A DNA stretch of 46,018 bases from Verrucomicrobiota bacterium (GTDB lineage: Bacteria > Verrucomicrobiota > Verrucomicrobiia > Limisphaerales > JACDHS01). Position numbers and translations under genes: made by a program. The DNA lies in assembly GCA_013820875.1 (NCBI GenBank), contig JACDHS010000023.1, positions 1-46,018 of the forward strand, in the 5' to 3' direction. Shown one piece after another: positions 19,824-35,242 of the stretch. Numbering within the stretch: the stretch's first letter is position 1; each line of letters begins with the position of its first letter. Below the pieces are notes generated by a model that searched no databases, had not been told where the DNA came from, and saw nothing but the letters and a program-made list of their open reading frames with translations.

Positions 19824-20477
19824 GTGATCTCCGTTGTCATTCCTACGCTCAACGAGGCGGAACATTTGCCGCTGACACTGGAGCGAATCCGAGCCAATGC
19901 CGCAGCGCACGAAGTCATCGTGGCGGATGGAGGCAGCACGGACGCAACATTGCAGGTCGCAATGCGAAGGGGAGCAAAGGTGGTTTGCTCGGACAAGGGC
20001 CGTGCCAGGCAGATGAATGCAGGCGCACAGGTAGCCATGGGGAACATTCTTCTTTTTCTGCATGCTGACACGCAGATCCACCCCGGCGGCCTGAGGCAAA
20101 TCGAAGAGGCGTTGAAGGAAACGCGAATCGTTGGTGGCGGGTTTGCCCGCAAGTTTGATTCCGATTCATTATTCCTGCGATGCACCTGTGCGGTGGCAAC
20201 GATGCGTTGTTCCCTCTTTGGCTGGTTTCTGGGCGATCAAGGGATCTTTGTGCGCCGCGACGTGTTTGAACAACTGGGCGGTTTCAAGGAAATGGCAGCG
20301 TTTGAAGATGTGGATTTCTCCCGGCGGTTGGCGGGCAGCGGCAGGACCGTGACGTTGAAGCCAGCAGTTATTTCTTCGGCCCGCCGGTTCTCCCAGCGTG
20401 GTCCGTTTTTAACAACCTGCCGAGATCTCTGGATGACCTGCAAGTATGTGGGTGGAAAAAATTATTCCGCCAAATAG
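19824..20477 (+). CDS. TIGR04283-type glycosyltransferase, arsenosugar-associated
   Basis: I choose the GTG at 19824, which gives 217 residues beginning ISVVIPTLNEAEHLP, the usual start of this GT2 family; an open frame upstream lacks homology. Motifs are the nucleotide-binding VADGGSTDAT, the DxD-like FLHADTQIHPG, and the acceptor/base region FEDVDFSRRL. TIGR04283 proteins are typical members of arsenosugar biosynthesis clusters, which agrees with TIGR04282, arsM and arsS in this window. It ends overlapping the convergent sterol-desaturase-like gene by 16 bp. Confidence 0.85.
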   Translation: MISVVIPTLNEAEHLPLTLERIRANAAAHEVIVADGGSTDATLQVAMRRGAKVVCSDKGRARQMNAGAQVAMGNILLFLHADTQIHPGGLRQIEEALKETRIVGGGFARKFDSDSLFLRCTCAVATMRCSLFGWFLGDQGIFVRRDVFEQLGGFKEMAAFEDVDFSRRLAGSGRTVTLKPAVISSARRFSQRGPFLTTCRDLWMTCKYVGGKNYSAK

Positions 20478-21325
20478 TTTTTCTTTTTCTCGAGAGCGGC
20501 CGGATCACGGCTTGTGCGAGAGCCGTCCGGTTTACTCCAGTAATCGCGCTGCTTGATGAAGGGCATGATCATCGTGCGCCAAAGAGTGTTATCATCCGGC
20601 GAACTGTATCCGGGCACACCGATTTCTATTTTAGACTGTGGAATGTTCAGACCGAGTGTCCTGTGCAGGCGATCCCACCAGGGAAAGACCACGCCGTAAT
20701 TGGAATTCGTCTCAGGCCTCACTTGTGAATGATGGATGCCATGCATGCGCGGAGTGACGATCAATTTGTTCAACCAGCGTTCGAGGCGGATGGGAAGTCG
20801 GAGGTTGCTGTGATGGAAAAGCGTTCCCGCCTGGAAGACCAGTTCGTAGAGCAGAAACATTCCGAGGGCAGGCCCAATTATGATTACCTGGGCGACACGA
20901 AACAGGGTGGACAAGAAAACTTCACCGAAATGAAAACGAAACCCGGTCGAGACATCGAGAGCAGGATCGATGTGGTGAACGTTATGAAAACGCCAGAGCA
21001 ACGGAATTTTGTGATTCAGGAGATGCCAGTAATAAAAGCTGAGATCGAGCAGCAGGAACCCAACAATGAACTCAGCCCAAACGGGTAGCCGAAGGAGGTG
21101 GAGCAAACCGAAATGTTGCGCTGAAGACCAGTCGAGGGCCGAGAGCGAAGATGGGCGGACGACGAGCATGGCAACGACGAACACGAGCCCGGACAAGACC
21201 CCGTTTACGAAAAGACGGGAGAGCAGCCCTGTGCGGGAGGCACGCAATGGGAACCATTTTTCAATCGCAAACAGCAGGACGAAGAGGGCGAAGATTGCAA
21301 GTGGCGTGTAGACAAGCAAATTCAT
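20462..21325 (-). CDS. Sterol desaturase / fatty acid hydroxylase family protein
   Basis: The ATG at 21325 gives 287 residues with four or five membrane segments. The di-iron histidine clusters of the superfamily are all present: HLLNH, HNVHH, and HGIHH near the end of the catalytic part, with an FHHSN piece between them. Such enzymes hydroxylate or desaturate lipids. A link to arsenolipids is tempting given the neighbours but is only inference. It is transcribed opposite to the two glycosyltransferase-like genes that flank it. Confidence 0.88.
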   Translation of the reverse strand: MNLLVYTPLAIFALFVLLFAIEKWFPLRASRTGLLSRLFVNGVLSGLVFVVAMLVVRPSSLSALDWSSAQHFGLLHLLRLPVWAEFIVGFLLLDLSFYYWHLLNHKIPLLWRFHNVHHIDPALDVSTGFRFHFGEVFLSTLFRVAQVIIIGPALGMFLLYELVFQAGTLFHHSNLRLPIRLERWLNKLIVTPRMHGIHHSQVRPETNSNYGVVFPWWDRLHRTLGLNIPQSKIEIGVPGYSSPDDNTLWRTMIMPFIKQRDYWSKPDGSRTSRDPAALEKKKNYLAE

Positions 21326-21384
21326 GTCATCGAGCAGCAAACGGTTTATAATCAACTGTGACTGCTATCGGCATTGAACATAAG

Positions 21385-22023
21385 ATGAACGCAAAATCCT
21401 CAAGAACCAAGCTGTTCATTTTTCTGAAGGCACCCCGCCCTGGGCAGGTTAAAACAAGACTTGCTGCCAGCATTGGGGCGGAGGCGGCGCAGCGTGCCTA
21501 CAAAACGATGGTCGAACATCTGCTGGCAAATCTGCGGGGATTGACTGCGGTGCAACTCCGCTTTTCGCCTGAGGACGCAGAGCATGAACTGCGGGCGTGG
21601 CTGGGCCGAGGATTTGAATATCGGTGGCAAGGAAATGGCAACCTGGGTGAGCGGTTGCAAAAAGCATTTCAGGAGGGTTTCGAGGAAGGAAATGAAAGGG
21701 TCACCATCATCGGGTCCGACTGCCCATATATCACCAGCGAAGACATCGAAGCGGCGTTCGAATCACTGAAGACAAATGATGTCGTGCTGGGACCGGCTAA
21801 TGACGGTGGATATTGGCTGATCGGTTTGCGTGAAGTGCAAGCCTGCTTGTTCCAAGATATCCCGTGGAGTACGGAAGCTGTTCTGGAGACCACGTTGAAG
21901 CGGATTGTGGATGCGAGATTATCGCATCAGTGCCTGCGCAGCCTGAGTGACATTGATAACGAAAAGGAGTGGGACGGTTATTATAAAACCATTCCGAAGC
22001 CATCCGGTTCTGTTCCTGGATAG
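21385..22023 (+). CDS. TIGR04282-type sugar-nucleotide transferase, arsenosugar-associated
   Basis: From ATG 21385 the product has 212 residues (a GTG at 21358 would add nine). It has the DUF2064/TIGR04282 fold related to nucleotidyltransferases: FLKAPRPGQVKTRLA at the N terminus, IGSDCPYI and GPANDGGYWLIGL in the middle, and WSTEAVLETT near the end. Members occur with TIGR04283 and arsS in arsenosugar clusters, where they are thought to help build or attach the glyceryl or sugar part. It is divergent from the desaturase-like gene. Confidence 0.87.
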   Translation: MNAKSSRTKLFIFLKAPRPGQVKTRLAASIGAEAAQRAYKTMVEHLLANLRGLTAVQLRFSPEDAEHELRAWLGRGFEYRWQGNGNLGERLQKAFQEGFEEGNERVTIIGSDCPYITSEDIEAAFESLKTNDVVLGPANDGGYWLIGLREVQACLFQDIPWSTEAVLETTLKRIVDARLSHQCLRSLSDIDNEKEWDGYYKTIPKPSGSVPG

Positions 22024-22180
22024 CTTCCGCTGAACAGCAGTGTTGGGCGGCGCGACTTTTGTCACTTCCAGAGGCAGCTGCCCATAAAGTATTTAACCCT
22101 GATTAGAATGCGCCGGGCTTTCCTACGAAAGATTAGGGGGAGCGTTAATAGAATTTTCCCTGTCCTGAAACATCCTATAG

Positions 22181-22239
22181 AGAGAGCAAAACTCTGACGT
22201 TTTGTTTCTCTGGAAAATAACATCAACAAAGGAGAGGGA
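22181..22239 (+). promoter_or_regulatory. Inverted repeat and strong RBS before the exported protein
   Basis: AGAGAGCAAAAC (22181-22192) and GTTTTGTTTCTCT (22199-22211) form an imperfect inverted repeat with a 6-base centre. It is followed by a strong Shine-Dalgarno sequence, AAAGGAGAGGG, four to five bases before the ATG at 22243. The repeat could be an operator or a 5' hairpin. Confidence 0.4.
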
Positions 22240-22242
22240 AAA

Positions 22243-22962
22243 ATGAAGCTAAACAAATTATTAAAACCGTTGTGCCTGGGAGTGGCCGTAACGGTCGGCA
22301 GTGTCTACGCGCAGACGGAGCAAGACAGTTCTTCACCAGCCGGGACAGGAACATTGCAAAATGAGAGCCGGATTTTGGAGACTTCAGAAAGCGCTGCTGG
22401 GGCTGCGCGTGTTTCTGCGGAACAAAGCATACAGAACTGGAAGGCTAAACCCAAAGAGGTGGCGCAGCAGATGATCCAGAAATATGGGCAACCCGATGAA
22501 GTGACATCGCAGCGTCTCGTCTGGCATGACAAAGGGCCCTGGAAAGAGACGGAACTTGTAAACGAAGAAATCGAACACAATTTTCCGAAGCCACACCAGG
22601 ACATGTTAAAACAAACCGTTCTGTTGCAAGTGCCAACAGAGAAGCTACAGGATCTGGCGGAGTACGATGGGAGTGTGATTGTGGACAGGACACCTGGACA
22701 CATCTCAGCCCGTTGTGACAAAGAAGAAATGAACTTCCTGGCACTCAACCTGGCACACGACATCATCCAGGGAAAAAGATCCGTGAGTGAATCTCGCGAT
22801 TTCTATGCAAAAACAGTCATGGCGTTCATGAAGGGTGACAAGCACCCCTACACTCAAGGTCTTCAATTCCAGCCGATGCGTGCCGCCCAGGCTGCCACCC
22901 CGGATCAACCTTCTCCAATCATCCAAGAGAAGGCGGGAGCGAAGCTTGAGCAGAACGAATAA
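22243..22962 (+). CDS. Exported protein of unknown function
   Basis: This 239-residue protein starts with a Sec signal peptide (MKLNKLLKPLCLGVAVTVGS, cleavage likely after VYA). The mature part holds WKAKPKEVAQQMIQKYGQPD, which recalls small domains tied to SmpA-like lipoproteins, then a helical region with FLALNLAHDIIQGKRSVSES and a Pro/Gln-rich end. I do not recognise a family with known function. The RBS is the strongest in this area, so expression may be high. A GC-rich hairpin follows at once. Confidence 0.72.
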   Translation: MKLNKLLKPLCLGVAVTVGSVYAQTEQDSSSPAGTGTLQNESRILETSESAAGAARVSAEQSIQNWKAKPKEVAQQMIQKYGQPDEVTSQRLVWHDKGPWKETELVNEEIEHNFPKPHQDMLKQTVLLQVPTEKLQDLAEYDGSVIVDRTPGHISARCDKEEMNFLALNLAHDIIQGKRSVSESRDFYAKTVMAFMKGDKHPYTQGLQFQPMRAAQAATPDQPSPIIQEKAGAKLEQNE

Positions 22963-22968
22963 CTAAAA

Positions 22969-22990
22969 GGGCCGCCTCCGAGGGCGGCCC
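22969..22990 (+). terminator. GC-rich hairpin, probable terminator
   Basis: GGGCCGCC and GGCGGCCC pair around TCCGAG just after the exported-protein stop. There is only a weak T-rich tail (GCTTGTTC), so it may need a factor. Confidence 0.65.
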
Positions 22991-23097
22991 GCTTGTTCTA
23001 CTAAACATAATTATCGGCTCACCGTACGGCCCTTGCCTCCCATGGTGATGGCTATCGTTAGTCTTCACCCATATGAAGGAGTTCGAGAGGAGATTAC

Positions 23098-24162
23098 ATG
23101 AAACCTGATGACCAAAACGGGAGACTGCCAACAGCAGAAAGACCTTTTCGCGTCCTGATCATCGCCGGCTCAGACCGGCGCCAATACAATTGTCCGGGCG
23201 TGGATTCCAAGGCTCGCACCCTGATGTTGCGCATGGCGGATCGACTCCCGCGAGATTGGGAAATTGATTACGAAGACATTGGGAACCTGTTTGGTCGCGC
23301 CCGGATCCAGAGTTGCAATGCGTGCGTTTCCACTTCCATGGCCTTATGCGTCTGGCCGTGCAATTGTTACGAGCCGAAGAACTCAAAAGAACCTGATCTC
23401 ATGTGGGATCTCGACCTCTACAGTCGCCTGGACCTGGCTGATGCGTGGGCAATCATTGGGCCAATCAATTGGTACGGGCCCACCTCCAATCTCAAGCTCA
23501 TGTTCGACCGGCTTGTCTGCATGAATGGTGGCAATCCGAAAGAAGAGTTGATTGAGCACAAGAATCCTGAACTGGCGATGAAGCTGGAGCATTCACCGGA
23601 ATGGGAAGAGTTGAGTCGAAATCATTTGGAAGGTCGCACGGCAGGGTTCTTCTCTTATGGGGATGGCGGTGGAGATGAATTGGACGAAACGGGAAGACCG
23701 AAATTGCTGCGGCACAAACACTATTTCGATCCCGAGCAGGAGCCGGAAGACAACCGTGACCTGTATGCGCCATTGGTTTGGCAGTGTCGTTATGGTGGCA
23801 TCGAGGTTCCGGACCAGTTATGGCGATATGTGATGTTTGGCCAGGGGAAGAAGTACAGTGATAACCAGGCGGAAGACATGGCGGCGGAAACCAACGTTTA
23901 CGCGGAATTCGATGAATGGACCGACGCGTTTGCAGCGTTCGTTCTGCGAAAGGGAAAAGTGGAGTCGGGAGAATTCCGCGCCTATGGCTACGAGGCGCGG
24001 GGGCATCGTTGGGCAGACCTGAAGTTAAAATGGCGCGAACACAAAATGAAAAAGGGAACCGGCCCACGAAATTCATCGCCGCACGAGCAGGGAAAACTTG
24101 GCTTGAACGCGGACTCGGGCAGTGATGCTAAAGAGTCGGAGGGTGAAAAGCTGCGGCGTTAG
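23098..24162 (+). CDS. Flavodoxin-like / NADPH-dependent FMN reductase
   Basis: This 354-residue protein has a flavodoxin-like fold. RVLIIAGSDRR holds the FMN phosphate region, and ADAWAIIGPINWYGPTSNLK with FDRLVCM matches the family's PxYxGxxS-T-LK loop. A Cys-rich piece (IQSCNACVSTSMALCVWPCN) lies near residue 70-85 and could bind a metal or metalloid. The C-terminal third is polar and lysine-rich. A good RBS (AGGAG) precedes the ATG. In this setting it may reduce arsenicals, as ArsH-type flavoproteins do, but it is longer than ArsH and that role is a guess. Confidence 0.75.
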   Translation: MKPDDQNGRLPTAERPFRVLIIAGSDRRQYNCPGVDSKARTLMLRMADRLPRDWEIDYEDIGNLFGRARIQSCNACVSTSMALCVWPCNCYEPKNSKEPDLMWDLDLYSRLDLADAWAIIGPINWYGPTSNLKLMFDRLVCMNGGNPKEELIEHKNPELAMKLEHSPEWEELSRNHLEGRTAGFFSYGDGGGDELDETGRPKLLRHKHYFDPEQEPEDNRDLYAPLVWQCRYGGIEVPDQLWRYVMFGQGKKYSDNQAEDMAAETNVYAEFDEWTDAFAAFVLRKGKVESGEFRAYGYEARGHRWADLKLKWREHKMKKGTGPRNSSPHEQGKLGLNADSGSDAKESEGEKLRR

Positions 24163-24173
24163 CCAAACGAGCA

Positions 24174-24206
24174 GGAAAGCACCGCAAGGTGGTTGCGGTG
24201 CCTTCC
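24174..24206. terminator. Bidirectional hairpin between convergent genes
   Basis: GGAAAGCACCGCA and TGCGGTGCCTTCC form a 13-bp stem with one mismatch around AGGTGG. It lies between the ends of the flavodoxin-like gene and the thioredoxin-like gene, where a two-way terminator is expected. Confidence 0.8.
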
Positions 24207-24236
24207 CAGTATTTGTTTCCCGTGGTCGGTGGCCTC

Positions 24237-24497
24237 TCATTGCGAGGCTCCAAGACCAGCGCGGCGAAGCGAGGCTTCGTCAACTCCCGCGTTTGCGCAG
24301 CAATCCGCCAGCATTCCATTCACTGCCACAGCCGGAACCGTGCGCACCCCATACTGAGTTGCCTTTTTCGCAACGTCGGGGTTGTGCATGTCGAGCACCT
24401 CAATTTCGCAAGATGGGCAGGCAATGCGATTGACCAATGCAATTGTTTCTTCGCACGCCGGACAACCCGCCGTGAACACTTCAATTTTTCGTTTCAT
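24237..24497 (-). CDS. Small thioredoxin/glutaredoxin-like protein
   Basis: This 86-residue protein starts KRKIEVFTAGCPACEETIA, so it has a thioredoxin-fold beginning with a CPAC redox pair, and includes the cis-proline VRTVPAVAVNG. Extra cysteines occur in IACPSCEIEVLD and DCCANAG. Similar small proteins accompany mercury and arsenic resistance genes. It is transcribed together with the membrane-protein remnant just upstream (one base apart). Confidence 0.82.
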   Translation of the reverse strand: MKRKIEVFTAGCPACEETIALVNRIACPSCEIEVLDMHNPDVAKKATQYGVRTVPAVAVNGMLADCCANAGVDEASLRRAGLGASQ

Positions 24498-24498
24498 A

Positions 24499-24720
24499 TT
24501 ATTTACTTCCGGTTGCGCTCATTGGTTGATTCTCTTTCGGTCCGGCGCAATCGGGGCACGAAAGAGAATTTCGTTTTCGCAGTGGCCATGTGTTCCAGAC
24601 GGAAGCGCCGACGAGCAACGTCACTCCGCCATACAATGCCGGGGCGAAATCAAAGTAAAATTTGCCGGTTAGAATCGTAATCGCCGCCAACACTCCCAAA
24701 AGGAAAGGGCCATATCTACA
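24499..24720 (-). pseudogene. Remnant of a small membrane protein
   Basis: From the TGT at 24720 the frame reads CRYGPFLLGVLAAITILTG, then a second hydrophobic segment (YGGVTLLVGASVWNTWPL), and ends with a CPDCAG pair. A stop codon lies directly upstream and no ATG is present, only a TTG at 24699 without RBS. It looks like the C-terminal half of a two- to four-helix metal-related membrane protein that lost its start. If the TTG were used the product would have 66 residues. Confidence 0.5.
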
Positions 24721-24842
24721 GGGTCAAGGGCCTGTTCCTAAAAAAGAAGCCGCTCGCGAAGAGGGGTCGGAGCGGCCAAAGACCAGCGTAACATAATAGG
24801 AAGAAATCAGCTGACTTGCTGATGATTAACGGCAAAAGATCG

Positions 24843-25085
24843 CTAGGCCTTTGGTTTCTCTTTCTTCGCAGCACACTTGGCGCAGGTCTTTGCATCCTTG
24901 TCCTTGGCTGCTTCCTTGGCCGCTTTTTGGCAGCAGGCAGGAGCATCAGCGAGGCATTTGGCGCAGGTTTCACCCTTTTTGGTTTGCGACGCGGCTTTTT
25001 TGCAACACTCGCCCGCAAAAGCGCTGGAGGCGGATAAAGCAGTGGCTACAAGGGCAATAGAGAGGTATTGAATCAACTTTTTCAT
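24843..25085 (-). CDS. Exported small eight-cysteine protein
   Basis: From ATG 25085 the protein has 80 residues. A signal peptide (MKKLIQYLSIALVATALSAS, cleavage after AFA) is followed by a 56-residue lysine- and alanine-rich mature part with cysteines at 27, 28, 41, 44, 51, 52, 68 and 71, that is CC, CxxC, CC, CxxC. The even spacing suggests metal or metalloid binding outside the cytoplasm, perhaps arsenite given the neighbours; this is inference. I know no named family. A second copy of this locus at 28581-28822 has lost nearly all cysteine codons. Confidence 0.75.
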   Translation of the reverse strand: MKKLIQYLSIALVATALSASSAFAGECCKKAASQTKKGETCAKCLADAPACCQKAAKEAAKDKDAKTCAKCAAKKEKPKA

Positions 25086-25244
25086 TTTGTGATGTTGCCG
25101 CACAGGATTGTGCGACTTCCCAGGTAGGAGGGATTAGCAAAGGATTTATTCCCGGATTCTTCGGGGCGGCTTTCCACCGGCAATGGCTAAACCAAGGAAT
25201 GGCTGAGGGTAGTCAGTGCGCCATCGCCATGCCGGGCGCATGCA

Positions 25245-25276
25245 AGAAACCAGCGGGCTTATGCCCGCCGGTCTCT
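25245..25276 (-). terminator. Hairpin after the DUF4331 gene
   Basis: AGAAACCAGCGGGC and GCCCGCCGGTCTCT pair with few mismatches around TTAT. On the minus strand the stem is followed by TTTCTTGC. It lies 17 bp past the DUF4331 stop. Confidence 0.7.
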
Positions 25277-25292
25277 GGAGGAACTGCAATTT

Positions 25293-26900
25293 CTATTGGC
25301 TTGAATGATGCGTATGATTGCGCCCATTTAACGGAGTCGCGGCATATGGAAATACCTTGTTGTAGGTAATATCGTTGTCATTCACGTTGTCGCCGAACGG
25401 GCCGCGAATGGTTGGGGGAGCGGTGCGCAGATCGCTGGCAATGGCAGTGACTGCAATATCCACAACATCGTCACCGAAGCGACGACCATTGGGCCAACCT
25501 CCGGGAACCGTTCCGCCCCCAAACCCTTCCTGAATCTGACTGGTGAGGGTGTCGCCTCCGAAAATGCTCAAAGTGGAGAAACCCGGATCGTCCGCGGAGG
25601 CCCCTTTCAATCGGGCCGGGCCGGTGGAGAGATCCACTTTGATCACGTCAGGGATGAAAATTGCAACCAGATCTGTGCGATCTGACTCCGGTGCTACGCT
25701 GCTGCCGAAGACCAATGCATTAAGAAGAACAGCCAGTTCTGGGTCTCTGGCGTACTTGGCAAACAGAGCAGCATCGGTTTTGGGTGAACTCCGATTGTAG
25801 AGATCTTTGTCTGCAATGGCTACAAGACCTTCGCAAAAGAGCGGGTTACCCTGGCGCCCCACTTGAATCCATGGGCCGCTAATGTCGTTTGCCCGATTGG
25901 AGCGGCCTTCCGCGAAAGGTACACCAGAAGTCAATTCCGGCACTGTGAAACTTCTAACATCCCGGAGGACTGTGGTACGTTTGCGGCAAGTAGTTGCCCA
26001 AACACCTGCGATCTGTTGATCACCACCAATTTCGGACAGCGGAATTTCCAGCACAATGGTGTGAACATTGAAACCACCTTGGGCATCAACCCCCGGATCT
26101 CGCAATTTAAGCAGGTCAAAGATTGCCTGGATGTCTCCATAAAATCCATCATCTCGCTGCCCCGCGAATGCTCGATACCCGTTAAAAGAGAAGATAGTCT
26201 GGGACGTATAACGATCGAGGCTGTTGGTGTCTGAGACGCCGCCTTTGGCAGGGTTTTCTCCATTGTCCCCCTGATTATAGAAAGGGGTGGCATTGCCCTG
26301 ATTGTTCGGAGGGACAACGCCGTTGCCAAGAAAGGTCATGTTTCCCCCAGAGCTTTTGTGGACCTTATAGGTTTGGACGAGGTTTTGGGCCTCGTCATTT
26401 ACGTTCGTGACGACACCGGTATATGCTTGCAGAATCGTTTGCTTGTTTTTGAACTGGGTCGAAAAACCGAAGTGAAAACTGTGCGTTGCAATGCCATTGG
26501 CCAGGTCGCCATTGCCATTGCCATTGCCATTGCCATTGCCATTGCCATTGCCAGGTTGATGAGCTGGCCGCTGGCGAGTAGAATTCGCATTCTTGGGACC
26601 GCTCGTCGCGATTCTGATCGAGTAAAGAACGTTGTCATCGAATCGATAGTTGTTCGGTCCGGCGCCCGGCTCTTCAAATGGGTAAACCGCCAAAGCGGTG
26701 ACTAAATATTTTTGCCCCTCTCGTTCTGTGACAAATGCGTAAACATCTGTTGTGTTTGCTGCTGGATCGAAGGTGAGCAACGGTGCGTCCTGATGACTGG
26801 ATGCTTCGACGAGAGCCGGTGTGAATGCGAGCAACGCTGACAGCATTGTCAGTGCGACTGTTCTTCCTGCTTTGTGCCATTGTGTGATCCTGATTTTCAT
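25293..26900 (-). CDS. DUF4331 exported protein
   Basis: From ATG 26900 the protein has 535 residues; the open frame further upstream overlaps the TPR gene and lacks homology. A signal peptide (~residues 1-35, ending LVEA) precedes SSHQDAPLLTFDPAANTTDV, the hallmark start of DUF4331. Further family pieces are TIVLEIPLSEIGG and RFGDDVVDIAVTAIA near the end. Between residues ~115 and 130 a hexanucleotide repeat encodes seven Gly-Asn pairs. The family is extracellular and of unknown function, and is often paired with a TPR gene, as here: the TPR gene stops 41 bp upstream on the same strand. Confidence 0.88.
   Translation of the reverse strand: MKIRITQWHKAGRTVALTMLSALLAFTPALVEASSHQDAPLLTFDPAANTTDVYAFVTEREGQKYLVTALAVYPFEEPGAGPNNYRFDDNVLYSIRIATSGPKNANSTRQRPAHQPGNGNGNGNGNGNGNGDLANGIATHSFHFGFSTQFKNKQTILQAYTGVVTNVNDEAQNLVQTYKVHKSSGGNMTFLGNGVVPPNNQGNATPFYNQGDNGENPAKGGVSDTNSLDRYTSQTIFSFNGYRAFAGQRDDGFYGDIQAIFDLLKLRDPGVDAQGGFNVHTIVLEIPLSEIGGDQQIAGVWATTCRKRTTVLRDVRSFTVPELTSGVPFAEGRSNRANDISGPWIQVGRQGNPLFCEGLVAIADKDLYNRSSPKTDAALFAKYARDPELAVLLNALVFGSSVAPESDRTDLVAIFIPDVIKVDLSTGPARLKGASADDPGFSTLSIFGGDTLTSQIQEGFGGGTVPGGWPNGRRFGDDVVDIAVTAIASDLRTAPPTIRGPFGDNVNDNDITYNKVFPYAATPLNGRNHTHHSSQ
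26508..26553. repeat. GCCATT hexanucleotide tract (7 units)
   Basis: Seven GCCATT units plus GCC sit inside the DUF4331 gene and encode (Gly-Asn)7. Slippage would add or remove two residues at a time without breaking the frame. Confidence 0.9.
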
Positions 26901-26940
26901 ATTGGTTATATAATTTCCTGGTACGTTTAGTTCATTTAGT

Positions 26941-28302
26941 TTACTTACCCCGTCTAGGCTCTTTGTCGCCCGCTTCAGCCAATCGGTGGCCAAGCTTTTG
27001 GAGGTGTTGTTTTTCTGAGGGGAAAAGTGTGTGTTGTAACGGCTTGAGCTTTTCCAGCCAGGCTTTGGTGGCTTGGCCCTTTCCGAGAGCATCCGCTATG
27101 ATCGCAGCGTGGAGGAATAGCCGGGCGTCTGGCGTTTTTTCTGCAAGTGCTTTCTCCATTTCACGCTCGGCCTCTTCATTTTGGTTTGCTCCCCAAAGAG
27201 CCCAGGCAAGAGCGTCGTGAGTCAATACATCGGAACGTATGGACAACTCACGTCTCGCGAGATTTACCGCCGTGCCGGATCTGATTCCGCGAGTAGTGAG
27301 ATACAAGGCAAATGTTCTCGCATCATCAAATACCCCGTTTCTGTTCAGTTCTTCTTCAAGCTTTTGCGCTTCTTTCTCACGCCCCAAAATTTGCAGCACA
27401 TCTGCGAGCAACCATTGGTATTCCAGCTCCGGCTTGATAGCGCAGGCACGTTTCAATGAAGTCAATGCCCCTGTAATATCGTTCGAAGCCAGATCGATTC
27501 GAGCCTTGGCGAACAGTGCTGCAGCATGGTTTGGCACCAACTGCAAAGCTAAGTTTACATTCTGCCTCGCCTCGTTGGTTCCCTTGAGTTGCCACTGATA
27601 GAACGCCAGTGTCGATAGCGCCCAGGCAGCCGACTCTGGATCTCGCGACGATCCAGCCTCCGCCGCCATTTCGGCCATTTCCCTCGCGCCATCCAGATCC
27701 CCAGTGATCCAGCGCGCATGCGCGGCCCGGCAGTAGGATTGCAGATCGGGCCGCAAATCGATCATTTGTTGGTATGCATTGATCGCCTCTGCCACTCGGC
27801 CCTGCTCGATCAGCACATCACCCAGCAGGCCGAAGTCGAATGGTGCGCCCCGATTTTCACTCAAAGTTCGCGCCAATGTTTCCGCTTCTTTAAAGGAGTG
27901 AGAATGATGCAGGATATGCCCGCGCAAAAGCATCGCTTCGAAGCTTTTCGGCTGGCGGGCTTCGATGCACTCTGCGCACGATTGCGCCAGCTTATAGAAG
28001 CTGGAATCTTGCGTGAGCCGCGCTTTGGAAACAAACACCCAACCCAATCTGTCCAAGAACGGCACGGGGTCAGGTGCGTCCTTGATTTTGCTCTGAAGAC
28101 GTGCAATTTCCTGGTCAATTTTTTCTGTGCCCTTCGACGGAACTAATATCGCTTTGCACGGCATCAAATCGGCAAATCGGTCTGGCGTGCTGGTTGCACT
28201 CGCCGTTGCTGTTTTGGGAACCGATTTTAGTTGCTCCTCCTTCGCTTTGAGCTGAAGCGAAAGCAGCAGCAAAACGGTTAACCACAGGTGCGGCATTTTC
28301 AT
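26941..28302 (-). CDS. Exported TPR protein paired with DUF4331
   Basis: The ATG at 28302 gives 453 residues starting with a signal peptide (MKMPHLWLTVLLLLSLQLKA). The mature part is an array of TPR-type helices, including PFDFGLLGDVLIEQGRVAEA, AALFAKARIDLASNDITGAL and YQWLLADVLQILGREKEAQK. A cysteine-containing piece, LAQSCAECIEA, lies near residue 105. It is likely periplasmic. It is the first gene of a two-gene unit with DUF4331, with which this kind of protein is commonly found. Confidence 0.83.
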   Translation of the reverse strand: MKMPHLWLTVLLLLSLQLKAKEEQLKSVPKTATASATSTPDRFADLMPCKAILVPSKGTEKIDQEIARLQSKIKDAPDPVPFLDRLGWVFVSKARLTQDSSFYKLAQSCAECIEARQPKSFEAMLLRGHILHHSHSFKEAETLARTLSENRGAPFDFGLLGDVLIEQGRVAEAINAYQQMIDLRPDLQSYCRAAHARWITGDLDGAREMAEMAAEAGSSRDPESAAWALSTLAFYQWQLKGTNEARQNVNLALQLVPNHAAALFAKARIDLASNDITGALTSLKRACAIKPELEYQWLLADVLQILGREKEAQKLEEELNRNGVFDDARTFALYLTTRGIRSGTAVNLARRELSIRSDVLTHDALAWALWGANQNEEAEREMEKALAEKTPDARLFLHAAIIADALGKGQATKAWLEKLKPLQHTLFPSEKQHLQKLGHRLAEAGDKEPRRGK

Positions 28303-28580
28303 GTTTATTTTGGCCCTCGACCCAAGAGAGATCCAGAGACTTCCAGGAACTGGTTGTTTCCATTTCGAAGGCATGAAAGGCATGAAAGAACTTAGTTCTG
28401 CGATGCATATAGCCAATAGAGGAGGAAACCTATTTTGATATCGGTGAATGCATCGCGCGTCCTCTGTGGCGCATTGGTAAGAATGGGCCCCCTAAGACTA
28501 AGATTCTTTTTTTCAGAATCACGCTGTGACAAGACCAACACACCAATCTAAGCGCCGGTTCATAGTCGATAGCAAATTTA
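28303..28580. other. Intergenic region, no gene seen
   Basis: This is the upstream region of the TPR/DUF4331 unit. It holds a small hairpin GATTCTTTTTTTCAGAATC at about 28501-28520 but no convincing ORF or promoter match. Confidence 0.4.
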
Positions 28581-28822
28581 GCCGCTCGCGCAGAGGGACG
28601 GAGCGGCCAATGCCAGATTACTATAATAAGGAATCAGCTGGCTTGCTGATGATGAACGGCGAGAGGGCTGCTAGGCCTTTGGTTTTTCTTCTTTGAAGCG
28701 GATAAAACGGTGGTGACAAGGGCAATAGACAGGTATTGGATCAGTTTTTTCATTTTGTGATGTCGTTGCAGAACCACTGTGCAATTTCAAAAGTAAGAGG
28801 AATCATCAAACGATTTATTCCC
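28581..28822 (-). pseudogene. Decayed copy of the eight-cysteine protein locus
   Basis: The 242 bp match 24749-25153 along their whole length, including ~90 bp of downstream and ~70 bp of upstream DNA (AGCCGCTCGCG at one end, ATTTATTCCC at the other), with an internal loss of ~163 bp. The gene copy starts at 28753 and reads MKKLIQYLSIALV-TVLSAS, after which the deletion removes all eight cysteine codons and shifts the frame at the old 3' end (28671). It is probably not functional, though a short signal-peptide-like product could still be made. Confidence 0.85.
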
Positions 28823-28878
28823 CTGCTGCTTTCATGGGCGCAAAAAAATGTTTGGGAAGCGGAGGTTGGGGAATAAAC

Positions 28879-29439
28879 ATGGCAGTCCAGCATCATATCT
28901 TTGTGGAAGTGGATTTCGAACAGGTTGTAAACAGCTATTACGAGGCGCTCTACCGCTTCGCGCTGAGTCTTGCGCAGAACGAAGCGGAGGCGTGTGACCT
29001 GACGCAGGACACGTTCTATACGTTTGCGACCAAGGGGCACCAACTGCGGGACAAGGCGCGGGTGAAAACCTGGTTATTTACCACCTTGCACCGGAAATTT
29101 CTTGGAGCGCGCCGGCACAGCAACCGGTTTCCGCATTGCGAGATCAATGAGACCAGTGATGCGTTGCCGGTGGTGACACCCAACATGGTGAACGAGATGG
29201 ATGCCCGCACGGTTTGGGATGCATTGACGGAGCTCGATGAGATTTATCGCGCGCCACTGACGCTTCTCTATCTGCAAGAGCATTCCTACCGGGAAATAGG
29301 CGAGATGCTCGATATACCACTTGGAACCGTAATGTCCCGGATTTCACGAGGCAAAGCGCTTCTGCGGGAGAAGTTAACCAAACGCGATGGCGTTCGAAAG
29401 ATCGTCCCACTTGAACAACAGAAAAGAATTTCACAATGA
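28879..29439 (+). CDS. ECF-type RNA polymerase sigma factor
   Basis: From ATG 28879 the protein has 186 residues (an ATG at 28834 is also open). Region 2 is YYEALYRFALSLAQNEAEAC followed by DLTQDTFYTF and KTWLFTTLHRKFLG. Region 4 is ALTELDEIYRAPLTLLYLQE, HSYREIGEMLDIPLGTVMSR and SRGKALLREKL. It is co-transcribed with a membrane protein gene whose ATG overlaps its stop, the usual anti-sigma arrangement, and with arsM just beyond. Confidence 0.92.
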   Translation: MAVQHHIFVEVDFEQVVNSYYEALYRFALSLAQNEAEACDLTQDTFYTFATKGHQLRDKARVKTWLFTTLHRKFLGARRHSNRFPHCEINETSDALPVVTPNMVNEMDARTVWDALTELDEIYRAPLTLLYLQEHSYREIGEMLDIPLGTVMSRISRGKALLREKLTKRDGVRKIVPLEQQKRISQ

Positions 29440-30161
29440 CCAACGACGAAGCCAAATTCATATTGCAGTCCTACCGGCAGAATGGAGCTGATGCAGATGA
29501 TTCCGTGTTTGCGGAAGCATTGGAACATGCCCGGAGGGATCCGCTCTTAAGTCAATGGTTTGCGGAGGAATTGCAACTCGACGCAGCGATCATCCAGAAA
29601 GTGAAGTCGGTTCCGGTACCCTCCGACTTGAAGGCAACCATCCTTGCAGGCGGGAAAATTGTCCGTCCTGCGGCGTGGTATCGGCGTCCCTGGCTGGCAG
29701 CGGCCGCTTGTTTCCTCCTCCTGGCGAGCGTGTTGAGCGTGTGGATGCTGAACAGGCCCGCTTCATTTCCGGCGTATAGAACGGACATGGTTCATTTTGT
29801 GTCCGGGTTGGACCGGTTGGACCTGCAAAGCAATGATCTTGGGGAAATCAAACAGTGGTTGAGCGAGAATAAAGCGCATGTGGATTTCACTTTGCCGGAA
29901 GGTTTGAAGGAGATGCCTGGGATCGGCTGCCGTCTGCTGTCATGGAACGGGAGGAAGGTGACGCTGATCTGTTTTGGAAAAATGGGTGCGGAGGAAGTTC
30001 ACTTGTTGATTGCGGACCGGTCGACATTTACCCAACCACCGCCGCTAAGCCCGCAATTTTCCAAAGAAGATGGCTGGAGCACTGCGATCTGGTCACGAGG
30101 TGACAAGGTTTACATGCTGGCGGGAATGGGCGACCGTGAAACGCTGTCGAGGTATTTATAA
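29436..30161 (+). CDS. Probable anti-sigma factor, single-pass membrane protein
   Basis: This 241-residue protein starts in an ATGA overlap with the sigma gene. A cytoplasmic part of ~85 residues (helical, with DPLLSQWFAEELQLDAAI) precedes one transmembrane segment at 86-105 (WLAAAACFLLLASVLSVWML side), and a ~130-residue outer domain follows. There is no zinc-binding HxxxCxxC motif. Position and topology point to an anti-sigma factor that holds the ECF factor at the membrane; the signal is unknown. arsM starts 46 bp later. Confidence 0.75.
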   Translation: MTNDEAKFILQSYRQNGADADDSVFAEALEHARRDPLLSQWFAEELQLDAAIIQKVKSVPVPSDLKATILAGGKIVRPAAWYRRPWLAAAACFLLLASVLSVWMLNRPASFPAYRTDMVHFVSGLDRLDLQSNDLGEIKQWLSENKAHVDFTLPEGLKEMPGIGCRLLSWNGRKVTLICFGKMGAEEVHLLIADRSTFTQPPPLSPQFSKEDGWSTAIWSRGDKVYMLAGMGDRETLSRYL

Positions 30162-30206
30162 GCAAGGGAATCCCCCCAGCCTGGAATGAATTCTTAATTT
30201 ATTTTT

Positions 30207-31370
30207 ATGAGCAATTCAATGCGCGCGGAAACGGCAGTTAAGGAGCGTTATGCGGCGGCAGCGAAAGCCCCGGAAGCGGCACTTTGCTGCCCAGTGGAAT
30301 ACGAGCCGGAATATCTAAAAATCATTCCCCAGGAAGTGATCGAAAAGGATTACGGCTGCGGCAACCCTGCGAGATATTTAAACGCTGGCGAAACGGTGCT
30401 GGATCTTGGATCCGGCTGCGGAAAGATTTGTTTCATCGCGGCACAGGTGGTTGGTCCCACCGGGAAAGTCATTGGGGTGGATATGACAGATGACATGCTG
30501 GAAGTGGCGCGACGCAATGCCCCGCTGGTAGCCGAAAAGCTGGGCTACCAGAATGTGGAGTTCCGGAAAGGTCGCATTCAAGACCTGGCATTGGATTTGG
30601 AAAAGCTCGATGCCGATTTGCGACAGAATCCGATCGCGAACGCGGCATCGTTCCTGGCGGCGGACGAACGGGCCGAAGAATTGCGCATCACCCATCCGCT
30701 GGTGGGGAGTGATTCAGTGGATGTCGTGGTCTCGAATTGCGTGCTGAACCTGGTGGAATCGAAAGCCAAGAGACAGCTTTTCGCGGAGATTTTTCGAGTG
30801 TTGAAAAAAGGAGGACGCGCGGTGATTTCTGACATCGTCTCCGATGAAGAAGTTCCGGAGGAGATGCAAAAAGATCCGACACTGTGGAGCGGCTGTATTT
30901 CCGGGGCACTGACAGAAGAAGGTTTTCTCGGAGCATTTGCCGATGCCGGGTTTTACGGCATCCAAATCCTGAAACGAGACGAGAAACCGTGGCAGACGGT
31001 TGCGGGTATTGAGTTTCGTTCTGTGACGGTGCAGGCATTCAAGGGAAAACAAGGACCGTGCTTTGAGCGCAACCAGGCTGTGATTTATCAAGGTCCGTTT
31101 AAAGAGGTGCTCGATGATGATGGGCATCGACTGGAGCGGGGCAAGCGTTACGCGGTGTGCGACAAAACATTTCAGCTCTACAAGAAAGAGCCTTACAAAA
31201 AACATTTCGCATTGATTGAACCACTGAGTGAAATCCCTTTGGAAGAGGCGAAGCCATTTGATTGTTCCGGCACAAGGCTGCGTCATCCGAAAGAAACGAA
31301 AGGGCGGGACTACACGGTCACCACCCAGGCGGGCCAATGTATCGATGGTGGAAATGGAGCCTGTTGTTGA
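30207..31370 (+). CDS. arsM: arsM, arsenite S-adenosylmethionine methyltransferase
   Basis: ArsM methylates arsenite stepwise to mono- and dimethylarsenicals. This 387-residue protein has SAM motif I VLDLGSGCGKICFIAA, then GVDMTDDMLEVARRNA, and SNCVLNLVESK as the post-I region. The conserved cysteines that hold As(III) are likely those in DYGCGNP, SNCVLNL and WSGCISGAL. A ~120-residue C-terminal extension, with cysteines in FDCSGTRL and a final GACC, goes beyond the core methyltransferase. The gene ends exactly where arsS begins, so the two act in sequence. An ECF sigma/anti-sigma pair lies just upstream. Confidence 0.88.
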   Translation: MSNSMRAETAVKERYAAAAKAPEAALCCPVEYEPEYLKIIPQEVIEKDYGCGNPARYLNAGETVLDLGSGCGKICFIAAQVVGPTGKVIGVDMTDDMLEVARRNAPLVAEKLGYQNVEFRKGRIQDLALDLEKLDADLRQNPIANAASFLAADERAEELRITHPLVGSDSVDVVVSNCVLNLVESKAKRQLFAEIFRVLKKGGRAVISDIVSDEEVPEEMQKDPTLWSGCISGALTEEGFLGAFADAGFYGIQILKRDEKPWQTVAGIEFRSVTVQAFKGKQGPCFERNQAVIYQGPFKEVLDDDGHRLERGKRYAVCDKTFQLYKKEPYKKHFALIEPLSEIPLEEAKPFDCSGTRLRHPKETKGRDYTVTTQAGQCIDGGNGACC

Positions 31371-32315
31371 ATGAATCGCTTTACGGAAAAACTCTCGGAG
31401 CATGGGCTGGCCCTGCAACGCGGTAAATTGCAGACGCTGCAAATCAATGTGGGTCGCAAATGCAATCAAGCATGCCGGCATTGTCACGTGGACGCGGCAC
31501 CGTGGCGCACGGAAATGATGAACCAGGAAACGGCGCTCCGCATCGGTTCATGGATTAATGAGAATAGACCAGCCATTGTGGACATCACCGGAGGGGCGCC
31601 TGAGCTCAGCGACTATTTCAAGTATTTCGTCCAAACCGGGAAAGATGCGGGGTGCCATGTCATTGACCGGAACAATCTCACTATCATTGAGACGAACGGG
31701 TACGGGTATTTGCCGGAATTTTTGGCCGAGCATGAAGTCGAAGTCATTGCTTCGCTCCCCTGCTATTCAAAAGAGAATGTGGACAAGCAGCGTGGCAACC
31801 ATGTTTTCGAAAAGAGCATAGCGGCGCTCAAAAAACTGAACGCGGCGGGGTATGGAACAAAGCTTCCGTTGAACCTTGTTTATAATCCGCTCGGGGCCAG
31901 CCTGCCGGGGCCCCAAGAGGAACTGGAAACCGATTACAAAGAAGTTTTGCTTCGTGAATTCGGGATTGTGTTCAACAAGTTGTACGCCATCACGAACCAG
32001 CCGATTGCGCGTTTCGCGACCGATTTACGGGAACAAGGCAAATGGGAAGATTACATGGAACTGCTGGCGAGCCATTTCAACCCGGGAACGGTTGAAGGAT
32101 TAATGTGCCGCAGCACAATTAGCATCGGGTGGATGGGGGAACTATTTGACTGCGATTTCAACCAGATGCTCGGGATGCAGATGCGCAACAGCAAACCGCT
32201 TTACCTCTGGGACGTGACACCGGAGGAACTTGAAGGACGGGAGATTCAAACGGGCATTCATTGCCTGGCATGCACGGCCGGGTGTGGCAGCAGTTGCACC
32301 GGGGCTATGCAATGA
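31371..32315 (+). CDS. arsS: arsS, arsenosugar biosynthesis radical SAM protein
   Basis: ArsS is a radical SAM enzyme that joins dimethylarsenite to a 5'-deoxyadenosyl group, the first committed step to arsenosugars. The protein of 314 residues has the cluster motif CNQACRHC (C31, C35, C38) after LQTLQINVGRK, the family stretch DITGGAPEL, CRSTISIGWMGELFDCDFNQ, and a C-terminal cysteine-rich end HCLACTAGCGSSCTGAM. In some relatives a selenocysteine occurs in this C-terminal region; here the frame uses cysteine codons and no internal TGA. The start codon directly follows the arsM stop. Confidence 0.9.
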   Translation: MNRFTEKLSEHGLALQRGKLQTLQINVGRKCNQACRHCHVDAAPWRTEMMNQETALRIGSWINENRPAIVDITGGAPELSDYFKYFVQTGKDAGCHVIDRNNLTIIETNGYGYLPEFLAEHEVEVIASLPCYSKENVDKQRGNHVFEKSIAALKKLNAAGYGTKLPLNLVYNPLGASLPGPQEELETDYKEVLLREFGIVFNKLYAITNQPIARFATDLREQGKWEDYMELLASHFNPGTVEGLMCRSTISIGWMGELFDCDFNQMLGMQMRNSKPLYLWDVTPEELEGREIQTGIHCLACTAGCGSSCTGAMQ

Positions 32316-32351
32316 ACGTGTTACAAGAAACCTGCTCAACTATTTAGATTT

Positions 32352-32948
32352 ATGAAAAAGATCATTCTGTCCCTGCTTCTGCTGGGCACAACTCTAGCAC
32401 ACGCTGAAACCAAAACCGCTCCGTTGAAAGTGGGAGATTCCATTCCTGATGTCACGTTGCGGACTGAAGAGGATAAAGAGGTCAAGTTGCGCAGCCTGAC
32501 CGCGAAACAGCCCACCGTGCTGATCTTCTATCGTGGCGGATGGTGTCCATATTGCACCCGGCAGTTGAAGGATCTTGCCGACATTGAAAATGATTTAAAA
32601 AAAGCCGGGGCGCAACTGCTGGCCATCAGCATGGATCAACCGAGCAAGCTCCGGGAAACGCCGGATCGAGAAAATCTCGGGTACCGGCTCCTGTCGGATA
32701 GCGATGCAACTGCAATCAAAGCTTTTGGACTGGCGTTCAAGGTGGACGATGCGACGGTTGAGAAGTACAAGACCTACAAGATCGATCTGGATGCGGCGGC
32801 GGGTCGAAACCATCACCTTCTGCCGCACCCAGCGGTGTTTATTGTAAACACCAATGGAATCATTCGTTTCGCCCATATCGATTCCGATTACAAAGTGCGG
32901 CTGGAACCTGCAAAAATCCTGGAAGCGACCCGCGGCGCAAAGAACTGA
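32352..32948 (+). CDS. Exported peroxiredoxin-like (AhpC/TSA) protein
   Basis: This 198-residue protein has a signal peptide (MKKIILSLLLLGTTLAHA) and a thioredoxin fold with IFYRGGWCPYCTRQLKDL; C65 and C68 form a CxxC pair at the peroxiredoxin position. The cis-Pro region is HPAVFIVNTNGIIRF. Related proteins are found in arsenosugar clusters, where they might protect against or reduce oxidised arsenicals outside the cytoplasm. It follows arsS by 36 bp on the same strand. Confidence 0.87.
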   Translation: MKKIILSLLLLGTTLAHAETKTAPLKVGDSIPDVTLRTEEDKEVKLRSLTAKQPTVLIFYRGGWCPYCTRQLKDLADIENDLKKAGAQLLAISMDQPSKLRETPDRENLGYRLLSDSDATAIKAFGLAFKVDDATVEKYKTYKIDLDAAAGRNHHLLPHPAVFIVNTNGIIRFAHIDSDYKVRLEPAKILEATRGAKN

Positions 32949-33011
32949 GCCTCATCACTGCGAACCGGCGAGTGTGGGGTGCAACGGCATTGCCAACGGG
33001 AAAACCGTGTC

Positions 33012-33716
33012 ATGACAAAGGAGGAGGAAAGCACTTCGGAAAAACGCCATTTTCAATGGAAGTGGTTGATTTACCTGGGTGCCGCGATTGCACTGATTGT
33101 GGCGGCGCGATTTTTCGGTTTGCAAGAATGGCTGAAGCAAGTGGTTGAATGGGTGGGAGGACTCGGTCCATGGGGAGTTCTCCTCTTTATAGGCGTTTAC
33201 GTGGTCGCGACTGTTTTGTTCATTCCCGGATCAGTGCTGACGTTGGGAGCAGGCGCAGTGTTTGGAGTGGTGTGGGGCTCGATTTACGTTTCGATCGGTT
33301 CAACGCTGGGAGCCACCTGCGCGTTTCTCGTGGGACGACACCTCGCGCGTGACCTCGTTGCGCGGAAACTCGAAGGAAAAGAACGGTTCGCGGCGATTGA
33401 TAAAGCGGTGGAAAGGGAGGGCTGGAAGATTGTGGGGCTGACGCGGCTTTCACCGATTTTTCCTTTTACCCTGTTGAATTACGCCTACGGCCTCACGCGA
33501 GTAAAGCTTTGGCACTACGTCCTTGCCTCGTGGATTGGCATGATGCCGGGAACCGTGATGTACGTCTACCTGGGGTCCGTGGCCAAAGCGGTATCTGGTG
33601 ACAGAACCACGGGGGAATGGATTCTGTACGGTGTGGGACTGGTCGCCACGATCATCGTGACCGTCTATGTGACGCACCTGGCGCGAAACGCACTGAGAAA
33701 AAGGATCGAGGATTGA
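33012..33716 (+). CDS. TVP38/TMEM64 (VTT-domain) membrane protein
   Basis: From ATG 33012 the protein has 234 residues; a GTG at 32979 is also open. It has five or six membrane segments with VTT/DedA-type signatures: FIPGSVLTLGAGAVFG, GSTLGATCAFLVGRHLARD, and RLSPIFPFTLLNYAYGLTRV. Such proteins are frequent partners of the mercuric-reductase-like flavoprotein that follows two bases later. The transported substrate or lipid-scrambling role is unproven. Confidence 0.9.
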   Translation: MTKEEESTSEKRHFQWKWLIYLGAAIALIVAARFFGLQEWLKQVVEWVGGLGPWGVLLFIGVYVVATVLFIPGSVLTLGAGAVFGVVWGSIYVSIGSTLGATCAFLVGRHLARDLVARKLEGKERFAAIDKAVEREGWKIVGLTRLSPIFPFTLLNYAYGLTRVKLWHYVLASWIGMMPGTVMYVYLGSVAKAVSGDRTTGEWILYGVGLVATIIVTVYVTHLARNALRKRIED

Positions 33717-33718
33717 GC

Positions 33719-35242
33719 ATGAACGACCAAACATCTCCAGCGATCAGTCCCTGGGACATCCACAATCAAAAGCTGGTTTCGCAGGTGCATCCGGCTGACT
33801 GGAAAAATCCCGTTCCGACGTCGCGTTACAATCTTGTGGTGATTGGTGGCGGGACGGCTGGCCTGGTAGCAGCAGCGGGCGCGGCTGGCCTCGGGGCGAA
33901 AGTAGCTTTGATCGAAAAGCACCTTCTCGGGGGCGATTGCCTGAATGTGGGGTGCGTGCCATCCAAGGCGCTGCTTCGGGCGGGGCGGGCCGCAGCAGAG
34001 CTGCGCGGGGCTGAAGAGTTTGGGATCAGGATCAAAGGTGAGGTGACTGTGGACTTCAGTGCGGTGATGGAGAGGATGCGCCGGTTGCGCGCTGAAATCA
34101 GTCCGCACGATTCCGCAGCACGTTTTCGTGAGCTGGGGATTGACGTTTTCCTGGGCAACGCTCAATTCGCGGGCGCTGACACGGTGCAAGTTGGTGATCA
34201 GAGTTTGCGTTTTGCCAAAGCGGTGATTGCCACCGGAGCCCGTCCCGCAGCCCCGTCGATTCCAGGTTTACAGGAGGTTCCTTATCACACCAATGAAACG
34301 CTCTTTTCCCTGACTGAGTTGCCGAAAAGATTCGGGATCATAGGGGCGGGGCCGATTGGTTGTGAGATGGCGCAGGCTTTTGCGCGGTTCGGTTCGGAAG
34401 TGTTTCTCGTCGAAACCGAGCATGGAATTCTGCCGAAGGAAGACCGTGACGCAGCCGACATTATTCGGGCGGCACTGATCCGAGACGGAGTGAAACTGCT
34501 TTGCTGCGGGAAAGAGTTGAAGCTGTCAAAAAATGCGGAGGGCATTCATCTGCAGGCCGACTCGCACGGAAGAAGTTATAAGGTTCCGGTAGATCAGATC
34601 CTGGTTGCGGCTGGTCGCGCTCCGAATGTTGAAGGGCTTGGCCTGGAGAAAGCTGGGGTGTTGTATGACAGAAAAGGGGTCGAGGTGAATGACCGGTTAC
34701 AAACTTCGAATAGCCGGATTTACGCCTGTGGTGATGTGTGTTCGCGCTACCAATTCACGCACGCGGCCGATTTCATGGCCCGCATCGTCATCCAAAACGC
34801 TTTGTTCAAAGGACGCAAACGGGTCAGCGACCTGATCATCCCATGGAGCACCTACACGTCGCCGGAGATTGCGCATGTTGGTTTGTATGAAAAAGAAGCA
34901 CGAGAGAAGGGAATCGAGGTAGAGACGTTCACACAAAAGCTTTCTGAGGTGGATCGCGCTGTGCTCGATGGTGAGCGCGAAGGATTTGTGCGGATTCACG
35001 TTCGGAAAGGAACAAATACGATCCTGGGGGCAACGATTGTGGCTGCGCACGCGGGAGAGATGATTTCGGAAATTACATTGGCGATGAATGGAAAATTGGG
35101 GCTGAAAACAATTGGCGGAACGATTCACCCGTATCCAACGCAAACGGAAGCCATTCGGAAGCTTGGAGATGTTTACAACCGGAGCCGACTCACACCGCTG
35201 GTACGAGCATTGTTCGGACGTTGGCTGGCGTGGACGCGGTGA
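33719..35242 (+). CDS. Mercuric-reductase-like FAD/NAD(P) disulfide oxidoreductase
   Basis: From ATG 33719 the protein has 507 residues. The FAD-binding motif is VVIGGGTAGLVAAAGAAGLG (~40-59) and the redox-active pair is in GGDCLNVGCVPSKALL (C74, C79). The NAD(P) motif is IIGAGPIGCEMAQAFARFGS, followed by ACGDVC and the dimerisation end GGTIHPYPTQTEAIRKLGD. It lacks the C-terminal vicinal cysteines and the N-terminal HMA domain of true MerA, so it probably does not reduce mercury. It is the last gene of the run that begins with arsM and may act on a sulfur or arsenic compound. Confidence 0.9.
   Translation: MNDQTSPAISPWDIHNQKLVSQVHPADWKNPVPTSRYNLVVIGGGTAGLVAAAGAAGLGAKVALIEKHLLGGDCLNVGCVPSKALLRAGRAAAELRGAEEFGIRIKGEVTVDFSAVMERMRRLRAEISPHDSAARFRELGIDVFLGNAQFAGADTVQVGDQSLRFAKAVIATGARPAAPSIPGLQEVPYHTNETLFSLTELPKRFGIIGAGPIGCEMAQAFARFGSEVFLVETEHGILPKEDRDAADIIRAALIRDGVKLLCCGKELKLSKNAEGIHLQADSHGRSYKVPVDQILVAAGRAPNVEGLGLEKAGVLYDRKGVEVNDRLQTSNSRIYACGDVCSRYQFTHAADFMARIVIQNALFKGRKRVSDLIIPWSTYTSPEIAHVGLYEKEAREKGIEVETFTQKLSEVDRAVLDGEREGFVRIHVRKGTNTILGATIVAAHAGEMISEITLAMNGKLGLKTIGGTIHPYPTQTEAIRKLGDVYNRSRLTPLVRALFGRWLAWTR

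Follow-up and report, generated by a model that had tools for sequence, protein, structure and literature searches.

Two segments of common design flank a pair of unrelated genes in a Verrucomicrobiota genome. One carries an intact gene for a small exported protein with eight cysteines, and the other a version from which the cysteines have gone. What does the intact protein do, what controls its gene, and how did the pair come about? The window, the 46,018-nucleotide stretch analysed here, is contig C239 of a 5.7 Mb genome in 239 contigs with 2.2% contamination. The answer that we favour, with moderate confidence, is that the eight-cysteine (Cys) gene belongs to the regulon of an ECF sigma factor driving arsenic methylation and arsenosugar genes, that its product would serve as an exported, thiol-rich metal(loid) buffer, and that the two copies, A and B, arose by duplication. 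That one ECF regulon takes in both the Cys gene and the arsenic-modifying genes is the best-supported new claim to be drawn from these sequences. The repeats and the genes between them are as follows; C90 denotes a second arsenic cluster in the same genome, and G003 and G571 are other genomes.

24499..24714, minus strand: MerC-like remnant, C-terminal 71 aa; C90 has a whole MerC-like gene with MerR adjacent
24749..24777, minus strand: hairpin of the A terminator, with a T-run after it
24806..24823, minus strand: 3' hairpin of A, 6-bp stem; counterpart in B at 28633-28650
24843..25085, minus strand: intact gene A, 80-aa exported protein with eight cysteines, all shared by homologs in C90, G003 and G571
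25293..27092, minus strand: ORF for a DUF4331 protein, lying between A and B; PF14224, E 3.9e-77
26941..28416, minus strand: TPR protein (ORF), partner of DUF4331; the pair occurs in five other genomes
28581..28608, minus strand: terminator hairpin of B, T-run lost
28634..28753, minus strand: remnant gene B, a 39-codon ORF with a signal-peptide core and then a frameshifted tail; 160-bp deletion at 28694/28695

Segment A (24749-25153, 405 bp) and segment B (28581-28822, 242 bp) lie on the minus strand as direct repeats, 74% identical over 261 aligned columns. A preliminary description of the window had proposed a repeat in direct orientation that brackets the DUF4331/TPR unit. The orientation is borne out by three direct-repeat matches on the same strand (D1-D3; 76 nt at 84%, 77 nt at 70% and 45 nt at 78%), which also rule out a chance origin, and the bracketing follows from the coordinates. 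Each repeat amounts to a single transcription unit, comprising promoter, gene start, 3' hairpin and terminator hairpin, with an 80-codon gene in A. The repeat boundaries fall on the -35 element and the terminator; because of this coincidence, and because dS between A and B is about 0.9, the ends may mark the parts that selection retained rather than breakpoints.

The product of gene A has cysteines at positions 27, 28, 41, 44, 51, 52, 68 and 71, behind a Sec-type signal peptide; if the cut falls after AFA, the mature protein has 56 residues. The CC, CxxC, CC, CxxC pattern and the 56-residue mature form had both been proposed earlier, and the translation agrees with them. Between the A and C90 copies, 50 of the 56 mature residues are identical, against 12 of the 24 in the signal peptide. 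Over the mature part dN is 0.056 with dS saturated, and on this comparison the mature protein is under strong purifying selection. The A, C90 and G003 proteins matched nothing in NCBIfam or Pfam, and PDB sequences gave no match to the Cys protein either. The A and C90 copies had no match in PHROG or PADLOC; for the G003 copy PHROG gave two matches (E 0.099 and 0.16) and PADLOC one (E 0.034). A known-family identity was dropped, the first three collections giving no match and the last two matching the G003 copy only. Likewise, a phage or plasmid origin of the gene was rejected, as the viral_contigs and plasmids collections contained no relative. A structure model from two-sequence input (mean pLDDT 72, three helices), which matched nothing in PDB with E below 6, is given no weight.

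Segment B has lost 160 bp (24867-25026 of A) and carries small indels besides. The 163-bp gap reported earlier stands as the net difference in length, 405 versus 242, but not as the size of the deletion. Because 160 is not a multiple of three, the 39-codon remnant encodes MKKLIQYLSIALVTTVLSAS followed by an out-of-frame tail. Its frame is disabled relative to the intact copy by deletion and frameshift, which makes B a pseudogene, and the view that the second copy is dead is supported. Every cysteine codon had also been said to be missing from B, and all eight did go with the deletion. The claim that B kept its signal peptide and flanks holds for the n- and h-regions and fails for the AFA/G cleavage site and the terminator T-run, both of which are gone. 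Nor does the loss of exactly the cysteine region call for a special explanation, because 26 of the 81 possible placements of a 160-bp deletion within the 240-bp coding sequence, about one in three, would remove all eight cysteines. The 20 codons that A and B still have in common, a small sample, show 8 silent and 2 replacement differences. Because these are mostly silent, B was probably functional until a late deletion, and the two genes would have spent a long time apart under selection before B was disabled.

Might B nevertheless still work, as a short RNA with its own promoter and hairpins, or as a short peptide? It does retain the promoter and both 3' hairpins. Against this, the T-run that would complete its terminator has gone, the frame is shifted, the z-scores are only -1.8 and -2.2, and a scan of positions 24000-30500 against Rfam, with E as high as 0.5 allowed, gave no match. 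The missing Rfam match and the low z-scores leave little for an RNA function in particular, and we regard continued function of B in either form as very improbable.

What A and B share with their surroundings is a promoter, which leads to the sigma gene next to B and the genes behind it:

25124..25153, minus strand: predicted ECF-type promoter of A, GGGAATAAA (25145-25153), N15, TCCTAC (25124-25129)
28793..28822, minus strand: predicted ECF-type promoter retained by B, GGGAATAAA (28814-28822), N15, TCTTAC (28793-28798)
28869..28898, plus strand: predicted sigma-gene promoter, GGGAATAAA, N15, TCATAT
28903..29439, plus strand: gene for an ECF sigma factor, start probably at GTG 28903; TIGR02937, 76 bits (cut-off 42.9)
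29436..30161, plus strand: putative anti-sigma factor with one hydrophobic segment and, after it, C165 and C179, conserved in aligned sequences
30207..31370, plus strand: ArsM-type arsenite methyltransferase; NF040538, 353 bits, below the cut-off of 500
31371..32315, plus strand: ArsS, arsenosugar radical SAM enzyme; TIGR04167, 427 bits (cut-off 300)

The sequence GGGAATAAA-N15-TC(C/T)TA(C/A) stands upstream of Cys A, Cys B and the Cys gene of C90, the G003 Cys gene is preceded by GGGAATAAT-N15-TCGCAC, and related sites lie upstream of a TlpA-like gene in C90 and of both sigma genes. Common to the Cys genes, the sigma genes and the TlpA-like gene is GGGAATAAA-N15/16-TCnnAn, a two-element promoter that, at the level of sequence, precedes the sigma gene and its candidate targets alike. 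The motif was derived from the same sites that it later marks; finding them again proves nothing, and it is specificity that counts. Over the whole genome (5.7 Mb) the search returned seven sites, the six source cluster sites and one other, and the reversed-pattern control none. A looser pattern returned 11 sites, five of them elsewhere, against two for its reversed control. The site at C128 was set aside as chance, lying antisense within a PHP-domain-like gene (named by eye), and the site at C156 had no ORF of at least 55 codons starting within 180 bases downstream. Each of 12 genomes had between 1 and 19 motif sites, the set being the source genome (G000) and 11 picked for the motif in the anti-sigma gene region, G003 among them. 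The whole G003 genome has two pattern sites, one of them at its Cys gene and also used to set the spacing.

The same promoter type recurs at other sigma genes. Among 31 distinct sigma loci linked to this type of anti-sigma gene, 17 have a GGAATA-type -35, N15/16 and a TC-type -10, and at 14 the script matched no such pattern. Exactly four bases separate the -10 element from the start codon at 16 of the 17 matching loci. Because four bases separate -10 and start, the start of the sigma gene in the window was moved from the listed position, 28834, which is upstream of the promoter, to GTG 28903, the probable start, and a leaderless message is predicted. Both promoter elements, -35 and -10, and the leaderless start are assigned from the sequence. 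At three other ECF loci (L043, L045 and L048) this promoter type precedes long exported proteins that resemble NHL/ScyD propellers by eye, not a Cys gene.

The sigma assignment rests on a TIGR02937 score above the curated cut-off. The putative anti-sigma gene, which overlaps the sigma gene, has only weak profile matches (NF052375, 16 bits against a cut-off of 100; DUF3379, 16.5 bits against 33.2), and its hydrophobic segment, at about residues 86-105, was seen by eye. The C165 position is a cysteine in 28 of 31 aligned sequences and the C179 position in all 31; because they follow the hydrophobic segment, both are probably periplasmic. The genes arsM and arsS come next, giving the operon-like order sigma, anti-sigma, arsM, arsS. 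The methyltransferase falls short of the arsenosugar-type ArsM profiles (NF038099, 139.7 bits against 400; NF040538 as listed) and is best described as an ArsM relative, while ArsS, a mark of arsenosugar biosynthesis clusters, scores above its cut-off. Sigma, anti-sigma and ArsM occur together in three genomes of other genera (G081, G536 and G518), and a fourth (G052) has the sigma/anti-sigma pair with a broken ArsM and ArsS; the named relatives from the scan of genome contigs are Verrucomicrobia. The open-licence literature yielded no paper on Verrucomicrobia with arsenic and an ECF sigma factor, a weak absence, and no case surfaced there of ArsM/ArsS genes following an ECF sigma/anti-sigma pair that has a separate promoter.

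How closely is the Cys gene bound to this arrangement? The anti-sigma gene is found in 108 of 245 relatives, whereas the Cys gene is absent from most relatives having the sigma/anti-sigma pair. A three-sequence profile found the Cys family in 3 of 320 genomes of the order, the source genome (two intact copies), G003 and G571, and when 387 genomes of the phylum were searched with a single sequence, the source genome alone gave a match. All four proteins (A, C90, G003 and G571) have the CC, CxxC, CC, CxxC pattern; a further candidate from the genome-contig scan (L016) was dropped, as it shares mainly the signal peptide. G003 has no ArsS above the cut-off, though its contig ends just past the anti-sigma gene, and the G571 copy lies in an unrelated neighbourhood without such a promoter. 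Because of these two cases the family does not appear strictly tied to arsenic, and the link between Cys gene and arsenic looks weaker than that joining sigma, anti-sigma and ArsM.

The cysteine pattern, taken with the neighbours, makes extracytoplasmic metal(loid) binding the likeliest predicted function. A role as a redox or disulfide partner, whether envelope thiol buffer or oxidative-stress protein, has the CxxC motifs in its favour, along with a small thioredoxin-fold gene nearby and the TlpA-like gene that, in C90, is divergent from the Cys gene and has the same promoter type. The vicinal CC pairs in a lysine-rich sequence are more like metal-thiolate ligands, and the neighbours are ArsM, ArsS and MerC/MerR; neither point is decisive, and we hold the redox role to be rather doubtful as the alternative to metal binding. 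The targets of Caulobacter sigma-F are bufferins, and an exported cysteine-rich peptide under an ECF factor raises the thought of a RiPP precursor of that kind, with cysteines modified by an MNIO (DUF692) enzyme for copper binding. Indeed, the G518 contig with sigma, anti-sigma and ArsS also encodes an MNIO enzyme along with an exported peptide rich in cysteine. Yet PF05114 has no match in any of the three Cys-family genomes and the Cys protein has none in Pfam; already weakened, the idea was dropped as most unlikely. The G518 pair itself (L074, about 7480-8608; MNIO by PF05114) is bufferin-like by eye.

The history of the locus can be read against C90 (L006, L013 and L014). The preliminary description had thought it worth looking for single-copy loci that lack the DUF4331 block, and C90 is such a locus, with one intact Cys copy and no DUF4331/TPR. 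It is colinear with 19768-35250 of the window, at 80-90% nucleotide identity in aligned blocks. Colinearity is broken where C90 has extra genes between a flavodoxin-like gene (named by eye) and thioredoxin, where the window has lost MerR and most of MerC, and between Cys gene and sigma, where DUF4331, TPR and B in the window stand against TlpA and other genes in C90. Because the genome is fragmented and binned, with some contamination, C90 could derive from a related strain; it could be either that or a paralogous cluster. Over the 251 columns in common with C90, A and B are 74% identical, A and C90 56%, and B and C90 53%, and A-B is the closest pair in 2000 of 2000 bootstraps. The A/B split would therefore postdate the split from C90, barring gene conversion, and the duplication of the Cys locus, as first proposed, gains support from A and B being closest to each other. 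In G003 the intact Cys gene is divergent from sigma/anti-sigma, the place held here by B and not A, which suggests that the position of B, next to the sigma gene, is the older of the two.

Homologs of DUF4331 and TPR are adjacent in five other genomes of the order (L087, L088, L089, L090 and L092), at 56-61% and 44-48% identity, respectively, and DUF4331 at E 1e-10 is present in 18 of 97 genomes. Because the pair travels together in those five, the block is a module of its own, and insertion of the ready-made module is favoured. The DUF4331 protein contains a short in-frame Gly-Asn repeat, at about 26505-26556, seen in sequence and translation. No paper on DUF4331 was found in the open-licence literature, where absence is weak evidence. 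A DNA circle carrying DUF4331/TPR together with a Cys gene might instead have recombined homologously with a resident Cys gene. There would then have been no duplication in this genome, and A and B would already have differed when brought together. The A/B identity of 74%, the pair standing alone in five other genomes and the absence of the block from C90 are all compatible with such an event; what it does not sit well with is that A and B are mutually closest against C90, and the loci examined held no donor with both Cys and DUF4331. Both the circle and the prior divergence of the copies are possible, though on the unlikely side, and we retain duplication as the preferred account.

A fuller scheme, offered tentatively, is that an envelope thiol-sensing ECF pair with a leaderless sigma message ties the methylation of arsenic in the cytoplasm, and arsenosugar synthesis with it, to the capture of arsenicals or soft metals by an exported eight-cysteine protein, metallothionein-like and no bufferin. 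On the favoured reading, a thiol-reactive signal in the envelope (an arsenical, a soft metal or an oxidant) would act on the two conserved anti-sigma cysteines, and the anti-sigma factor would then free sigma. Freed sigma would transcribe its own operon, giving more sigma, arsenite methylation and arsenosugar synthesis, and would also transcribe the Cys gene. Sec would export the 56-residue thiol-rich protein, which, once out of the cytoplasm, would bind soft metal(loid)s; the TlpA-like thioredoxin of C90, behind the same promoter type, is a candidate for keeping it reduced. The A/B pair would go back to a duplication after the C90 split, or owe its likeness to gene conversion; B, adjoining the sigma gene, would have kept working for a long time before the part with the cysteines went, leaving A, beyond the DUF4331/TPR module, as the working copy. 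If this reading is right, an ECF sigma factor relays a signal sensed in the envelope to the arsenosugar genes of these Verrucomicrobiota, and the exported thiol-rich proteins, a rare family, gain a precise promoter and a role open to testing. The duplicate would also offer a natural control, an intact and a disabled gene behind the same promoter type.

Several known systems invite comparison. The bacterial metallothioneins SmtA and BmtA are proteins of about 56 residues with many cysteines and CxxC motifs, and the mature Cys protein is like them in length, cysteine content and CxxC; unlike them, it has a Sec signal peptide, and no sequence match in Pfam, NCBIfam or PDB, so that no bacterial metallothionein profile of Pfam or NCBIfam recognises it. 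Bufferins and related MNIO peptides are exported, cysteine-rich and proposed to protect against metals (PMC12538549). The Cys protein is likewise exported and cysteine-rich; it differs in having no Pfam match and no MNIO gene in its three genomes. As in known ArsM/ArsS arsenosugar genes (PMC12159101), the ArsS of the window, above the TIGR04167 cut-off, adjoins an ArsM-type enzyme; what differs in the window is that the two genes follow an ECF sigma/anti-sigma pair for which a separate promoter is predicted. For the regulatory pair the nearest parallel is Caulobacter sigma-F, whose downstream partner NrsF has two conserved cysteines that matter for the response to Cr and Cd, are thought to face the periplasm and are needed to hold sigma-F targets at basal level (PMC3511200). 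The sigma-F gene and its targets share promoter motifs, though under metal stress sigma-F shows no strong autoregulation (PMC3511200). Both systems would pair an ECF sigma factor with a downstream two-cysteine negative regulator and have a promoter motif common to the sigma gene and its targets. Unlike NrsF, the anti-sigma factor of the window appears to be of a single-segment type and of a different family, and the sigma-F/NrsF account, in the portion available, is without arsenosugar genes (PMC3511200). NrsF may nonetheless serve as a precedent for the proposed sensing logic, the likeness being one of logic rather than of homology.
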